35,935 nucleotides of DNA from a virus. Position numbers and translations under genes: made by a program. Shown piece by piece: positions 5,163-35,128 of the stretch. Below the pieces are notes generated by a model, which was not told where the DNA came from, did not search any database, and worked only from the letters and a program-made list of their open reading frames with translations. The stretch is taken from IMG/VR virus record IMGVR_UViG_3300009378_000025, positions 1 to 35,935 of that record. One strand, given 5' to 3'. Position 1 is the first letter of the stretch; each line of letters opens with the position of its first letter.

Positions 5163-5238
5163 GGGCCTGTAGCATAACGGTTAATGCAGTGAACTCATAA
5201 TTCATTGAGTCCTGGTTCAAATCCAGGCAGGCCCACCA
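5163..5238 (+). tRNA. tRNA with CAU anticodon (Met or lysidine-modified Ile2)
   Basis: A full cloverleaf is visible: acceptor GGGCCTG / CAGGCCC, D stem GCAT/ATGC, anticodon stem GTGAA/TTCAT with loop CTCATAA, T stem CCTGG/CCAGG with loop TTCAAAT, discriminator A and encoded CCA. The paired G1-C72 excludes an initiator tRNA. CAU can be elongator Met, or Ile reading AUA after lysidine modification. The Ile2 reading would suit this AT-rich genome, but sequence alone does not decide. Confidence 0.93.
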
Positions 5239-5239
5239 A

Positions 5240-5316
5240 GTCTCGGTAGCTCAACTGGATAGAGCAACGGCCTTCTAAGCCGTAGGTTAAAGGTTCAAGT
5301 CCTCTCCGGGACACCA
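5240..5316 (+). tRNA. tRNA-Arg (UCU)
   Basis: Acceptor GTCTCGG / CCGGGAC, D stem GCTC/GAGC, anticodon stem ACGGC/GCCGT with loop CTTCTAA (anticodon TCT), T arm AAAGG/CCTCT with one A-C mismatch, and encoded CCA. It reads AGA, a dominant arginine codon in these genes. It starts one base after the first tRNA, so they are surely cotranscribed. Confidence 0.93.
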
Positions 5317-8732: not shown

Positions 8733-10190
8733 ATGGATTTTGATTTAAACGCAATACTGGCTTTATTGTCCGGTACTATCTATGGATTAATAGTTGGTAT
8801 TATCCCGGGTGCTGGTGCAACAACAGGCCTAATTGCAATATATGGATTCATTTACATGTTTCCAGATCCCTACTTAGCAGTAATCTTTTGTATGGCGGTA
8901 GTAGCTGCTTCAACCACTGCTGACACCTATACATCAGTTTTATTGGGAATTCCTGGAGCTAATTCTGCAGCGGCAACAATGGTAGATGGCTTTCCTCTTG
9001 CCCAACAAGGTAAAGCAACATATGCAATCTCTGCAGCAATAACAACATCAACCATTAATGGTTTATTATGGGGAATTCCGGTATTCTTGTTCTTCCCATA
9101 TTACGCAGAAATAATGCTATTCTTTGGTACACCTGAATTGTGGATGTTTACTATTTTAGCTATGGCAACAGTAGTATTTGTATCAAATAGACATTTTGTT
9201 AGAGGCATAATTGCTTTAGCTACTGGTATCTTTATTGGATTAATTGGTATTGATCCTCAAACAGCTACAGATCGATATACATTTGGCTGGGACTACTTAG
9301 CAGATGGGGTACAATTAATTACATTAGTGGCAGGATTATTTGCTGTTCCTGAAATGTTAGATGGTCTTAGAGATTCGCAAGTAAGGGCAAAGGCTAGTAA
9401 AGATGGATATAAACAAACAATAGATGGTATAAAGGCTGTTTGGAAACATAGATGGTTAGCCTTAAGAGGTGGTATAATTGGAGCATTAGTTGGAGCTTTA
9501 CCTGGACTAGGAGGTGCAGTATCTGATTGGATGGCTTATGGTCAAGCAGTAGCAACTACTAAGAACCCTAAACCAGAATTTGGTAAAGGTAATATCATTG
9601 GAGTTATTGGGCCGGAGGGATCTAATAATGCTCAGAAAGCAACAAGCATGGTACCTACAGTTTTATTTGGAATTCCCGGTGCATCTTTTGCTGCTATCTT
9701 ACTCGGGTTATTTGGAATGCTTGATTTTGAACTTGGGTCTATGGATCTATTAGCAGATACAAAGTTCTTTGAAAGTATGACTTATGGATTTTTATGGGCA
9801 ACTGTACTAATAGCTATTATTGGTTTCTTCATCACGAAGTACGTCACAGCTGTTGTCAATGTCCCATATAAATATTATTTTCCTATACTACTTACTATTA
9901 TTGTAGCAGCTTCTGTGCAATATACTGGTGGTTGGGAGGATTATGCAATGTTTATCATTGCAACAATCTTGGGTGTTTCTTGTAAGCATTTCAAGTTTAA
10001 CAGAGCGGCTTTACTCATAGGTTTTATATTAGCTGAACGGGTAGAAGCTTTAACTTTGCAAACGTTTTCATTATATAATGTTGGTGATTTATTTACTAGG
10101 GTTACATTTGATATACTATTTGCTATGACCGTCGTAGTTTTAGTTTACGGCATTAAAAAGGGGTGGAACTCAAAACTTGAGTTCTCTTAA
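8733..10190 (+). CDS. tctA-like: TctA-family tripartite tricarboxylate transporter permease
   Basis: A 485-residue integral membrane protein of about 11-12 hydrophobic segments with the TctA signature near the N terminus (GTIYGLIVGIIPGAGATTGL; SVLLGIPGANSAAATMVDG) repeated in the second half (LPGLGGAVSDWMAYGQA; TVLFGIPGASFAAILLG). The internal repeat and length are normal for TctA. The family is the large permease of periplasmic-binding-protein-dependent, ion-coupled carboxylate importers. The binding protein follows; a classical TctB is absent. The ATG at 8733 has no visible ribosome site, so expression may rely on read-through from upstream genes. This is host-derived metabolic cargo. Confidence 0.9.
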   Translation: MDFDLNAILALLSGTIYGLIVGIIPGAGATTGLIAIYGFIYMFPDPYLAVIFCMAVVAASTTADTYTSVLLGIPGANSAAATMVDGFPLAQQGKATYAISAAITTSTINGLLWGIPVFLFFPYYAEIMLFFGTPELWMFTILAMATVVFVSNRHFVRGIIALATGIFIGLIGIDPQTATDRYTFGWDYLADGVQLITLVAGLFAVPEMLDGLRDSQVRAKASKDGYKQTIDGIKAVWKHRWLALRGGIIGALVGALPGLGGAVSDWMAYGQAVATTKNPKPEFGKGNIIGVIGPEGSNNAQKATSMVPTVLFGIPGASFAAILLGLFGMLDFELGSMDLLADTKFFESMTYGFLWATVLIAIIGFFITKYVTAVVNVPYKYYFPILLTIIVAASVQYTGGWEDYAMFIIATILGVSCKHFKFNRAALLIGFILAERVEALTLQTFSLYNVGDLFTRVTFDILFAMTVVVLVYGIKKGWNSKLEFS

Positions 10191-10215
10191 ACAATTATTC
10201 TATATAAGGAAAAAA

Positions 10216-11292
10216 ATGAATAAAAAAATAATTGCATTAGGTTTAATGCTATCATCGTCAATTGCATTAGCAGACACTTTTACATTTATCTCGCCACAGA
10301 AGCCAGGTTCTGGTACATCTCAGTGGACTGATATTGTTGTTAAGGAGTTAAGAAAGCATATGCCAGGAGATACTTTAAATGTACGTTACTTCCCAGGAGC
10401 TAGAGATATTCCTGCAATTAACGCATTTCAAGAAGAGCTTAGATATGATAACAATAACATCGTAGTATCACATGGCGGTAATGGTGTTAGTTTCTTACAA
10501 GAACCTACAGCCAAATACAAGTATGGTGATTGGGATTCAATTGGTATGATGAATTTAAATATTATTAATGCTAAATCAAAGGACTTTAATCCATATGAAA
10601 AGAGTTTCTGGTCTAGTAATAAAGTAAAATTTGCTGCTTCATCTGGTAGAGTTCCAGATGCAATGGGTATGACATTATTACTTTGTGGTCCTGGTAAATC
10701 AGTTGAAGAATACGGTGCTTGCTTCAAAGAGAATGTTAATTGGGTTAAGGGTATGAAGAACGGTGAACGTCGTTTAGCTTTTAAGAGAGGCGAGTTAAAT
10801 GCTGATAGAGAAAATCCAGCAGCATACAAAAAACATATTATGCCTAATGAAAAATCTGAACTATGGTTCCATCATGGTATCCTTCAAGCAGATGGCTCAC
10901 ATGGTGATGATATTAACTTCCCAGGTTATCAAGTAGAAATTCTATTCGAAAAGATGTATGGGGTTAAACCAGAAGGTGATTTTTACAATGCATATAAGCT
11001 AGTTAAATCATTTAGAGATTCACTACAAAAAGCAATGTGGGTAAATAAAAATAACCCTAATCGTGATAAGTTAGTGGCGGCTCTTACTAAGATGTCAAAT
11101 GACGCGGAAAGTATTAAGGCTATTCAGAAGAAAGTTGGTAAATATGATTGGGTAATTGGTGATGCTGGTAATAAGCAACGTGATACTCTAATGTCATTTA
11201 TCACTGAAGATGCCTTAACAGATCTAGTTAAATTCTCTAAAGAAACATTAGATGTTAATGCAACCGTGAAATCTGATCTTATCAATAAGTAA
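10216..11292 (+). CDS. tctC-like: TctC-like periplasmic substrate-binding protein
   Basis: A 358-residue protein with a clear Sec signal peptide (MNKKIIALGLMLSSSIALA, cut before DTFTF). The start at 10216 is chosen over 10177 because it has AAGGA 5-7 nt upstream and gives a clean signal sequence. The mature N terminus FISPQKPGSGTSQWTDIVVKEL resembles the TctC/Bug opening in which a PxxPGGGTD loop binds the carboxylate, though it is divergent and somewhat longer than usual. With the adjacent TctA it would deliver an organic acid from the periplasm; the substrate cannot be read. Confidence 0.7.
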   Translation: MNKKIIALGLMLSSSIALADTFTFISPQKPGSGTSQWTDIVVKELRKHMPGDTLNVRYFPGARDIPAINAFQEELRYDNNNIVVSHGGNGVSFLQEPTAKYKYGDWDSIGMMNLNIINAKSKDFNPYEKSFWSSNKVKFAASSGRVPDAMGMTLLLCGPGKSVEEYGACFKENVNWVKGMKNGERRLAFKRGELNADRENPAAYKKHIMPNEKSELWFHHGILQADGSHGDDINFPGYQVEILFEKMYGVKPEGDFYNAYKLVKSFRDSLQKAMWVNKNNPNRDKLVAALTKMSNDAESIKAIQKKVGKYDWVIGDAGNKQRDTLMSFITEDALTDLVKFSKETLDVNATVKSDLINK

Positions 11293-23648: not shown

Positions 23649-23678
23649 TTAACATATTCCTGCTAGTTGTGTTATAAT
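23649..23678 (+). promoter_or_regulatory. Early promoter for the lipoprotein unit
   Basis: TTAACA (23649-23654), 18-bp spacer, extended -10 TGTTATAAT (TATAAT 23673-23678). The lipoprotein ATG at 23709 follows with AGGAG 8 nt upstream. It matches the promoter at 2525. Confidence 0.75.
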
Positions 23679-23708
23679 ATACATATAAACAATAAAAAGG
23701 AGTTAAAA

Positions 23709-24539
23709 ATGAAAAAACTAATATTATTAACATCAATTGCTTTACTAGCATCTTGTAGTTCAACTGGTGGCAATTATTATGCAACTGATAACTATGGTTT
23801 AATTAGCAATGTTGGTAATTCATTAAGTGCCAATAAGTCTTATTCATATCAACATGTTGAAATGGATGGTGAGTTAGTAGAGAGATTTGAATTAAGACAT
23901 GGTGATTGTGGTACTGATTATAAATCTGACTATACTGATTGTGGTAGAGGCAAGGGTAGACAAGAAGTAGACACCCAAACAACCGAACATGAAGTTATTG
24001 AAGTATTAGACTATACAAAACCTAATATAGTATGGTATTCATACTCAATTTACTTCCCTAAAGATTATGAAAATTATCAAAGGGATTATAATGGAATATC
24101 CACTATTTATGGTCAGGTTAAGTTGTATGGATGGGATATGCCAATGTGGAGTGTAAAGGGTGTGGAAGATGGACTTATGTTTGAAGCAGATACCTCAGGT
24201 GGTACATGTATCATTGCCCCTTGGGAAGAGGTTAAAGGAAGATGGACTAATATTACAGTAAGGGCAGATTATGATACTAAACATCGTGTTAATGCTCCTA
24301 ACGGGTATATGTTTGATCCAAAAACAGACTATTCATATGCTGATGTTTGGGTAAATGGTGAACAAGTACCGGGGTGTATTACCTTTCAACCACTACTCAA
24401 TAGTTGGACTCCAGGTCAATCCAGAAAACCTGATATGAGCAATAGAGTTCACTTTAAGCATGGTATCTATAGTACATTTGCTGATAAATATTTTCCACCA
24501 CAAGTGGTGTATTACAAGGATATTAAAATACATAAATGA
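23709..24539 (+). CDS. Lipoprotein with polysaccharide-lyase-like fold
   Basis: A 276-residue protein with a lipoprotein signal MKKLILLTSIALLASCSST: the lipobox LASC puts Cys16 as the lipidated residue, so it would be membrane-anchored and exposed in the periplasm or outer surface. The body has the beta-rich jelly-roll pattern of polysaccharide lyase families: WYSYSIYFPKDY, a central WTNITVRADYD, DVWVNGEQVPG and a terminal GIYS...QVVYYKDIKI. This recalls heparin-lyase-type PF14099 proteins. Catalytic residues are not assigned. A start at 23667 is rejected because it would translate through the -10 box. Confidence 0.65.
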   Translation: MKKLILLTSIALLASCSSTGGNYYATDNYGLISNVGNSLSANKSYSYQHVEMDGELVERFELRHGDCGTDYKSDYTDCGRGKGRQEVDTQTTEHEVIEVLDYTKPNIVWYSYSIYFPKDYENYQRDYNGISTIYGQVKLYGWDMPMWSVKGVEDGLMFEADTSGGTCIIAPWEEVKGRWTNITVRADYDTKHRVNAPNGYMFDPKTDYSYADVWVNGEQVPGCITFQPLLNSWTPGQSRKPDMSNRVHFKHGIYSTFADKYFPPQVVYYKDIKIHK

Positions 24540-32943: not shown

Positions 32944-33231
32944 ATGTTAGAAAGAACAAGTAACGGGTATTTAGTAGACCCATCAATTTGGTCAGAAGAG
33001 ATCATGCATGAAATGGCAAAGGAAGATGATATTGTATTAACTGAATCTATGGTTAATCAAATCTTAAAGGCTAGAGAGTATTTTGATGAGAATTCAAGTG
33101 TACCACCAATTAGAACATTTTCTAAATACGTTGGTATTGATAAGAAGATTCTATTCAAAGAATGGTTAACTGGCCCTATGAAGCCTATTACAAAGTATGG
33201 TGGAATGCCCCAACCGACGGGTTGTGTGTAA
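32944..33231 (+). CDS. tusE-like: TusE/DsrC-family sulfur-relay protein
   Basis: A 95-residue protein of the TusE/DsrC family: N-terminal NGYLVDPSIWSEEIMHEMAKEDDIVLTESM, middle REYFDENSSVPPIRTFSKYVG and terminal GGMPQPTGCV, whose penultimate Cys carries the persulfide. The second, upstream Cys of true DsrC is absent (ITKYGGMP), so it is TusE-like rather than DsrC-like. TusE passes sulfur to MnmA for 2-thiouridine in tRNA wobble positions. GGAG lies 8 nt before the ATG, directly behind nrdA. Another possible role is redox support of NrdA. Confidence 0.85.
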   Translation: MLERTSNGYLVDPSIWSEEIMHEMAKEDDIVLTESMVNQILKAREYFDENSSVPPIRTFSKYVGIDKKILFKEWLTGPMKPITKYGGMPQPTGCV

Positions 33232-33388: not shown

Positions 33389-33607
33389 ATGTTAGATAAA
33401 GTTGTAGGCTGGATCAAGGCCGGAACTGAAGCAGGTGTAGCATTAATTGCTTTTGCAATTGTATTACAAGTAATCTTCGGTGGAACTGTACCGTTTGTTG
33501 GTGGTGATATCATCGCTACTATTACTGGTATCGTTGCTCAACTTGGTGCTCAAGGTCTAGTTGGTCTTGTTGCGGCTGCTGTACTATACAAGATCTTCGA
33601 TAAGTAA
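33389..33607 (+). CDS. Small two-helix membrane protein
   Basis: A 72-residue protein: MLDKVVGWIKAGTEAGVALI, two hydrophobic spans (about residues 16-32, AGVALIAFAIVLQVIFG, and about 38-67, rich in Ile/Ala/Gly/Val) and a terminal YKIFDK. It has no Cys. The even spacing of Gly and Ala suggests packing of helices in oligomers, as in holins or channel peptides, but it could be another membrane or virion peptide. AGGAGA is 6-7 nt before the ATG, and tandem early and late promoters lie upstream. No family recognised. Confidence 0.65.
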   Translation: MLDKVVGWIKAGTEAGVALIAFAIVLQVIFGGTVPFVGGDIIATITGIVAQLGAQGLVGLVAAAVLYKIFDK

Positions 33608-33712
33608 GATGTGAGAAATCCGTTGAAATATACGGGTCAGTTTTATTAGTTTTTCTGCATAACCCAAAGAACTAAGAACCACTTTCAGACTGAGGATCCT
33701 CGGTCGCTATAA

Positions 33713-34030
33713 TGGAAGATAAGGATTGGCTAAAGTCGATTGAGTGCTTCCACCTAATTTGGTATAAGGCGTGGGTTATAACCATAGCCTTTACCATTTA
33801 CTCTTTATTGGAGTTATGTAGGACACGAGTTCAATTCTCGTCGACTCCACCAATGAAGGCATTGTTCCCCGCAGTGTCTTCTTTAGTGGGGTTGCTAGGT
33901 TTCGACTAGGTAACAGAAGATTTAGAGTTGTAAGACCAAGTAAACGCAAACGCAAATACTTACAGTTTAGCTGCTTAGGACCGGCTAATGGGGATTTAGG
34001 CAGGGTGTTCCTTATTATCAAAACACCCTC
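33713..34030 (+). ncRNA. ssrA: Circularly permuted two-piece tmRNA
   Basis: The tRNA-like 3' end comes first: T arm ACGAG-TTCAATT-CTCGT (33825-33841), acceptor strand CGACTCC, then ACCA ending 33852. After a 35-nt intervening segment, the 5' end GGGGTTG (33888-33894) pairs with CGACTCC and creates the G3-U70 wobble that marks alanine acceptors. D-loop-like TTTCGACTAGG follows. Pairing between the two pieces is seen: GTAAC/GTTAT, AGAGT/ACTCT, GTAA/TTAC. The tag frame lies at 33946-33978. An 8-bp stem AGGGTGTT / AACACCCT (34002-34029) ends the unit. A TATAAT at 33708 and a stem TGGAAG / CTTCCA (33713-33752) stand at the upstream side. Outer boundaries are estimates. This fills the 447-nt gap before nrdB. 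Confidence 0.85.
33946..33978 (+). other. tmRNA proteolysis-tag reading frame
   Basis: GCA resume codon followed by codons for NANTYSLAA and TAG: tag ANANTYSLAA. The bases before the resume codon (AGTAAAC) resemble those of E. coli tmRNA, whose tag is ANDENYALAA. The terminal LAA is the usual ClpXP-recognised ending. Confidence 0.85.
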
Positions 34031-34054
34031 CAACAAATTATAGGGGATTATATT

Positions 34055-35128
34055 ATGCATTCAGTATTTCAAATTAATACTAAAGACTATTTAACTAAAA
34101 CAATGTTCTTTGATGAACCGGTTGATATCGCTCGATACGACCAAGTTAAATATCCACATATCCAAAAGTTACAGGAGAAAATGTCTTCATTCTTTTGGAC
34201 ACCAGATGAGATTGATGTTACAAAGGATAAGATTGACTTTAATAAGTTAACCGAGTCTGAACAACATATCTTTACTGCTAATCTTAAAAGGCAAATACTA
34301 CTTGACTCTGTTCAAGGTAGATCCCCTAACATTGCATTACTTCCGATTTGTTCTTTACCAGAGGTAGAGTTACTTATTGAAACGTGGGCATTCTTTGAGA
34401 CGATTCATTCTAAATCATATACACATTTAATTAGAAATGTATACCCTAATCCATCAATGGTATTTGATGAAATGGTAACCATTAAAGAGATTGTAGAATG
34501 TGGAGATGATGTAAGTAAACACTATGATGCTCTTATTAATTTTAAAGGGAAGTATGGGTCATACGAACATAAGAAAGCTTTATATTTAACAATGATGTCT
34601 ATCTTTATTTTAGAAGGTATCAGATTCTATGTTTCATTCGCATGCTCTTGGGCCTTTGCAGAACTTAAGAAAATGGAAGGCAACGCTAAGATTATTAAGA
34701 TGATTGCAAGAGATGAGAATACTCACTTGTCTGCCTCTATACATATTATCAAAGGTCTTATGAAAGAAGATGAAGACTATGTTAAGATCAAAGATGAAAC
34801 TGAAGATGAAGTGATGGGTATGTTTGCCTCAGCAATTGAACAAGAAAGAGATTGGTGTGACTACCTATTTCAAGGTGGTTCAATGATTGGTCTTAACTCT
34901 AGTTTATTAAAAGAATATATAGAATGGATTGCATCAAAAAGAATTAAAACTGTGGGTTACTCTGTACCTTTTCATGTTAGTAAAGCTAACCCATTACCAT
35001 TTACTGAAAAATGGATTGGTGGTGGTAATGTACAGGTAGCACCCCAAGAAACTGAAATCACCTCTTATGTAATTGGTGGTGTTAAACAAGACGTAGAAGA
35101 AAATACTTTAAAAGGATTAAGTTTATGA
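34055..35128 (+). CDS. nrdB: Ribonucleotide reductase small subunit NrdB
   Basis: A 357-residue beta subunit carrying the di-iron ligands in ETWAFFETIHSKSYTHLI (about 109-126) and IARDENTHLSASIHI, and a Tyr-bearing segment typical of class I. T4 NrdB is 388 residues, in a gene split by an intron; here no intron is present. It supplies the radical to NrdA. AGGGGA lies before the ATG, and the end overlaps glutaredoxin by 4 nt. Confidence 0.95.
   Translation: MHSVFQINTKDYLTKTMFFDEPVDIARYDQVKYPHIQKLQEKMSSFFWTPDEIDVTKDKIDFNKLTESEQHIFTANLKRQILLDSVQGRSPNIALLPICSLPEVELLIETWAFFETIHSKSYTHLIRNVYPNPSMVFDEMVTIKEIVECGDDVSKHYDALINFKGKYGSYEHKKALYLTMMSIFILEGIRFYVSFACSWAFAELKKMEGNAKIIKMIARDENTHLSASIHIIKGLMKEDEDYVKIKDETEDEVMGMFASAIEQERDWCDYLFQGGSMIGLNSSLLKEYIEWIASKRIKTVGYSVPFHVSKANPLPFTEKWIGGGNVQVAPQETEITSYVIGGVKQDVEENTLKGLSL

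Follow-up and report, generated by a model that had tools for sequence, protein, structure and literature searches.

Among bacteria, permuted tmRNAs are known from alphaproteobacteria, betaproteobacteria and cyanobacteria (PMC9004378, PMC11915505). With three bacterial lineages as well as marine phages having the permuted form, it is not the alphaproteobacterial hallmark that an initial annotation of the present DNA had taken it for. The two-piece tmRNA of phage Melnitz was described by Buchholz et al. 2022 (PMC9004378), and 53 such structures have been reported among 18,146 phage genomes (PMC9004378), marine or aquatic phages accounting for 50 of them; 79 phage sequences are listed in the tmRNA database. 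Two-piece tmRNA genes are, in other words, already known in marine phages, and the gene analysed here is a further example. It is located in the window, i.e. the complete stretch of 35,935 nt of IMG/VR record IMGVR_UViG_3300009378_000025, for which no direct DNA match was found in the phage collection. A pattern scan of IMG/VR returned at least 120 stretches; of the loci among the matches listed, ARAGORN called most permuted. With a probability of roughly 85%, the locus is best explained as a circularly permuted tmRNA gene that is functional and belongs to a T4-like marine phage.

Anatomy of the two-piece gene

The gene occupies positions 33759-34029 (+ strand) of what is a T4-like phage fragment, in line with its earlier description as phage-encoded. 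ARAGORN calls a single tmRNA in the window, which is permuted (33760-34069, tag ANANTYSLAA), and when the whole window was searched with all Rfam families, tmRNA_permuted (RF04321) matched at 33800-33978 with 70.5 bits (E 8.9e-12; curated cut-off 47 bits); both confirm the permuted tmRNA that had been proposed. The acceptor (CCA) half lies 5' of the GGGG half with a short spacer between them, as is characteristic of a permuted tmRNA, and the details given in the initial annotation hold as well: the CCA end is at 33852, separated by a 35-nt spacer from GGGG, which starts at 33888, the 7-bp acceptor stem has the G-U wobble for alanine as its third pair (G33890.U33846, i.e. G3.U70), and the tag frame encodes ANANTYSLAA with its degron-like LAA end. 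Of the extent proposed at the time (33713-34030), the gene itself stands and the start does not, since 33713 is the final base of a TATAAT box (33708-33713), so that the RNA must begin farther downstream; conserved tmRNA structure runs from near 33759 to near 34029. The features of the locus are as follows.

33389-33607, + strand: sp72, gene for a 72-aa hydrophobic (membrane) protein that travels with the tmRNA
33684-33713, + strand: weak candidate for a sigma-70-like promoter upstream of the tmRNA, TTCAGA-18-TATAAT
33759-33852, + strand: acceptor piece, encoded first; the 5' limit is the approximate onset of conserved structure
33761-33795, + strand: hairpin near the 5' end of the acceptor piece; compensating changes keep the pairing in L364
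33813-33821, + strand: P2, 3' strand, pairing with 33906-33914
33825-33841, + strand: T arm of 5 bp with loop TTCAATT; double-sided changes in 4 of 5 pairs, pairing 100%
33842-33852, + strand: acceptor 3' strand CGACTCC (33842-33848), discriminator A (33849) and CCA (33850-33852)
33853-33887, + strand: intervening segment of exactly 35 nt, predicted to be removed in processing
33855-33881, + strand: 11-bp hairpin in the 35-nt spacer; in close relatives the stem sequence is invariant and the loop variable
33888-34029, + strand: coding piece, encoded second, with 5' end GGGGTTG (33888-33894); the 3' end is placed by the conserved hairpin
33906-33914, + strand: P2, 5' strand, pairing with 33813-33821
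33927-33936, + strand: mini-hairpin GUU-GUAA-GAC where PK1 would be; short form in most close relatives
33946-33978, + strand: tag frame GCA AAC GCA AAT ACT TAC AGT TTA GCT GCT TAG (ANANTYSLAA)
33967-33988, + strand: P5, formed by the last tag codons and the sequence 3' of the stop
34002-34029, + strand: 3' hairpin with conserved loop CCUUAUNAYCAAA, ending just 5' of the nrdB ribosome-binding site
34055-35128, + strand: nrdB, ribonucleotide reductase small subunit, downstream of the tmRNA

The promoter candidate is considered weak because such sites are no more numerous in the region than expected by chance. In the window, the 3' hairpin has no T run and nrdB comes directly after it. A T run does follow the tmRNA 3' hairpin in L012, L020, L023 and others, which means that there the hairpin could double as a terminator.

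Conservation and proposed function

Structural conservation was assessed on an alignment of 17 phage homologues (including the window), located upstream of genes related to the adjacent nrdB. Among these, 20 of the 32 base pairs changed on both sides, compared to 7.6 in shuffles, and pairing was kept in 90.8% of the alignment cells (81.7% in shuffles); none of 500 shuffles and none of six slid controls matched the observed covariation and pairing. The G3.U70 pair is G.U in all 17, and the window RNA folds 3.15 sd below shuffles. The tags of the homologues vary (ANANTYSLAA, ANANTYAIAA, ANDNVYALAA, GNQNDYLLAA, GKNDYLLAA, DNNVYLLAA), while every one of them ends in LAA or IAA, with codons there that differ synonymously. 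The tmRNA gene thus looks to be under selection rather than a relic.

Some features of the window copy could nevertheless be read as those of a decayed remnant without function: its RF04321 score is below that of the close relative L002 (70.5 versus 106.1 bits), some relatives have no tmRNA downstream of sp72, and PK1 is shortened, the stretch from P2 to the tag being ~22 nt shorter than in L002. However, changes in the T stem, P2, P5 and the 3' hairpin are compensated (for the T stem, P2 and the 3' hairpin also in the direct comparison with L002) and the tag is intact. The short form of PK1, moreover, is kept in several phages and is in fact common to most close relatives, some of which have GUC-GUAA-GAC. 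In E. coli tmRNA a hairpin can substitute for PK1, so that the short PK1 of the window need not abolish function, though it counts as a caveat. The DNA identity between the window and L002 is 80% for the tmRNA, 84% for nrdB and 81% for nrdA. A long tree branch had suggested faster decay of the window copy, which was ruled out by an even relative-rate count: the window tmRNA evolves no faster than the L002 copy, at a rate similar to that of nrdA and nrdB. Loss of function is, all in all, very improbable.

The gene order, the tRNA-like domain, the helices joining the two pieces, the tag frame and the selection on structure and tag can be read from the DNA itself. From these we infer processing, charging, tagging and a benefit to the phage. 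One precursor transcript, initiated at the TATAAT box (33708) or farther upstream, would be cleaved by host RNase P before GGGG (33888) and trimmed to CCA (33852) by host 3' processing enzymes, with loss of the 35-nt hairpin spacer, and the two tmRNA pieces would remain paired by helices. The CCA end would then be charged by host alanyl-tRNA synthetase, host SmpB would bring the tmRNA to ribosomes stalled on broken mRNA, and ANANTYSLAA would be added to the stalled product, which proteases of the ClpXP type would then degrade. The phage would probably benefit by keeping ribosomes usable during host mRNA degradation. The ribosome-rescue role put forward in the initial annotation is plausible.

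Alternatively, the RNA could act as a decoy, tying up host SmpB, AlaRS or ribosomes and thereby blocking host trans-translation. A phage precedent is the tag-less tmRNA of mycobacteriophage DS6A, cited in PMC11915505, and the reduced PK1 would be compatible with such a use. Unlike in DS6A, however, the tag is retained and its LAA/IAA end is conserved across relatives; since a pure decoy has no need of a tag, this counts against a decoy, which seems a most unlikely use. For a functional tmRNA, SmpB must be borrowed from the host and must fit, as eight related phage records yielded no smpB. The gene is missing at this place in some close relatives, so that the tmRNA may be dispensable or located elsewhere.

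Lineage, neighbourhood and host

According to the initial annotation, the tmRNA was probably taken from the host lineage, with SAR11 ssrA named for comparison; an alphaproteobacterial (SAR11) origin is not borne out by model score, T arm or tree. In its sharper form, by which this phage recently acquired a SAR11-like, alphaproteobacterial ssrA from its host, the idea draws on the permuted form, on related marine phage groups infecting SAR11 (PMC9004378) and on the relative L433, which has the same tag as L002 and exceeds the cut-off of the alpha model. The covariance search with that model (alpha_tmRNA, RF01849), proposed at the time as a check, nevertheless gave only 23.9 bits on part of the window gene, below the cut-off of 50. 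The beta_tmRNA model (RF01850) matched at full length with 58.1 bits, short of its cut-off of 84, which L002 and L013 exceed (100.1 and 107.8 bits); cellular alpha-type genes, too, score about 70 bits with it. Since relatives that have one tag in common can pass the beta model in one case and the alpha model in another, the covariance models do not settle the donor, and a firm betaproteobacterial origin was not adopted on account of this split and of the scores of alpha-type genes with the beta model.

About 400 Pseudomonadota genomes yielded 33 cellular alpha-type tmRNA genes ('alpha' being assigned from the sequence type); most of the genes that the pattern scan of cellular genomes returned were one-piece tmRNAs that happened to have a GGGG downstream. 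All 33 have an altered T arm (GGGGGCGGUACCC type), a signature absent from the window and its phage relatives, the window having the standard loop TTCAATT. In the tree, the phage group of the window is monophyletic (support 0.99) and falls outside the alpha-type clade (support 1.0). The gene has therefore long been resident in phages. In addition, the tmRNA is common to phages with NrdB diverged to 72-76%. A recent SAR11-like capture is therefore highly improbable; the gene is a member of an old phage lineage that moves, along with sp72, between diverged phages.

The gene order in the NrdB-related phages is nrdA - (dsrC) - sp72 - tmRNA - nrdB - grx. The sp72 product had no match in Pfam or PHROG. 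A search with sp72 alone returned 80 loci, in 42 of which ARAGORN found a permuted tmRNA downstream. In L364-L368 and L374 the sp72-tmRNA pair is located between a clamp-loader gene and hsp20/DNA polymerase, with identities of 55-56% for the clamp loader, 44-48% for the polymerase and 90-93% for sp72, and in L370 and L371 it sits between a diverged nrdB (36-38%) and grx. The occurrence of the pair at different places in diverged T4-like phages (comparison of the window with L364-L376 and L379-L458) suggests that the two genes tend to move together. In some relatives, sp72 is only 104-136 nt from nrdB, with no tmRNA there.

With respect to the host, the window has a DsrC/TusE-like gene (32944-33231) whose product ends in PTGCV and has, of the cysteines in the DsrC motif, the penultimate one alone. 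The gene is absent from HTVC008M, Mosig, Melnitz and C48C1, and dsrC/tusE has been reported in phages of SUP05-type gammaproteobacterial sulfur oxidizers and others. It may be taken as a hint against SAR11 as the host and is no proof of another host; no feature of the phage points to SAR11. Unusually for a phage, the window also has a TctA-type tricarboxylate transporter gene (8733-10190; PF01970, E 8e-98), followed by a gene for a secreted protein (10177-11292) that is TctC-like by eye and has no Pfam match; a TctA-based search for hosts in cellular genome contigs gave no match. Further observations are a polysaccharide-lyase-like protein (PF14099) with a lipoprotein-like start (23667-24539) and a pair of neighbouring tRNA genes (5163-5316; anticodons CAT and TCT).

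Spacer reading frames and comparison with known two-piece tmRNAs

In the window's own spacer, a candidate for a conserved mini-ORF (MKALFPAVSSLVGLLGFD) was rejected, its frame being lost in L364 and L370. In relatives, conserved protein genes very probably do sit in the spacers of permuted tmRNAs, as judged from two unrelated cases:

Zinc-ribbon gene in tmRNA spacer, examples: L332 1494-1626; L023 4273-4703
Second spacer gene: Melnitz MZ577097.1, within tmRNA 45984-46436; L343-L355 and L358-L360

The zinc-ribbon protein (MKEIIWHFSCK.C.GWWSIAV.D.WQPKKLFCPHCGKPYIYD) is encoded in a 133-nt tmRNA spacer in six contigs (L332-L337) that belong to the window's own tmRNA family, its frame crossing GGGG in frame and stopping in the D arm. 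A homologue in L338 (1501-1650) stands alone between tmRNA and nrdB, relatives in L339-L342 are apart from any tmRNA, and dN is far below dS in these genes (e.g. 0.05 versus 0.56). The second protein (MFKWL...VVIT.DYF.ER.RKADAKIPKYLSG) has its gene in the tmRNA spacers of sixteen IMG/VR contigs and of Melnitz, for which the GenBank annotation gives the tmRNA alone and not the spacer gene. The gene has a GGAG ribosome-binding site, some contigs have an in-frame 24-nt insertion, and the Melnitz-type spacers are 142, 166 or 186 nt long. In L358-L360 the stop lies within the spacer; in most spacer genes the frame continues through GGGG to a stop inside the coding piece. Since the frame then spans the RNase P site, cleavage would yield a non-stop mRNA whose end coincides with a codon boundary. 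The tmRNA might then tag the product of its own spacer, as a self-regulating loop comparable to ArfA, although such a loop seems unlikely. A literature search found no report of protein genes in tmRNA spacers. Small hydrophobic reading frames are also seen in the spacers (159 and 98 nt) of the permuted phage tmRNAs L130 1793-2262 and L174 4261-4661, the L130 start being preceded by AAAGGAG.

The methylophage Melnitz (MZ577097) and the pelagiphages Mosig (MT647606) and HTVC008M (KC465899) are T4-like marine phages that likewise have a permuted tmRNA, with RF04321 scores of 113.4, 93.6 and 90.6 bits (window 70.5), and they rely on host SmpB, as the window phage would. Their tags (ANDNYVPVDYALAA, GEDNFALAA and ANFNEYALAA, respectively) differ from ANANTYSLAA and end in ALAA, the window tag likewise ending in LAA, whereas their 3' hairpin motif differs from that of the window. 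The tmRNA of Melnitz lies upstream of a late-transcription coactivator gene, that of the window at a different genomic place. A glutamine riboswitch, as reported for Melnitz (PMC9004378), was rejected for the window, which gave no match. The window gene adds to the evidence that a two-piece tmRNA of the phages' own is common in marine T4-like phages.

Compared to the bacterial forms, the phage group has the standard T loop in common with the betaproteobacterial tmRNA (RF01850) and a nearly identical 3' hairpin loop (CCUUGUNACCMAA in RF01850), but the window gene is low in G+C, shorter, has another tag and is not nested with the sampled betaproteobacterial genes in the tree. With the alphaproteobacterial form (RF01849) it shares the permuted order and the tRNA-like core, while the T arm and 3' hairpin motif of that form do not fit it and the score is below the cut-off. 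The window gene corrects the assumption that phage tmRNA genes come from the present host, and with its 10-codon tag and minimal PK1 it is a compact natural variant of the two-piece tmRNA.
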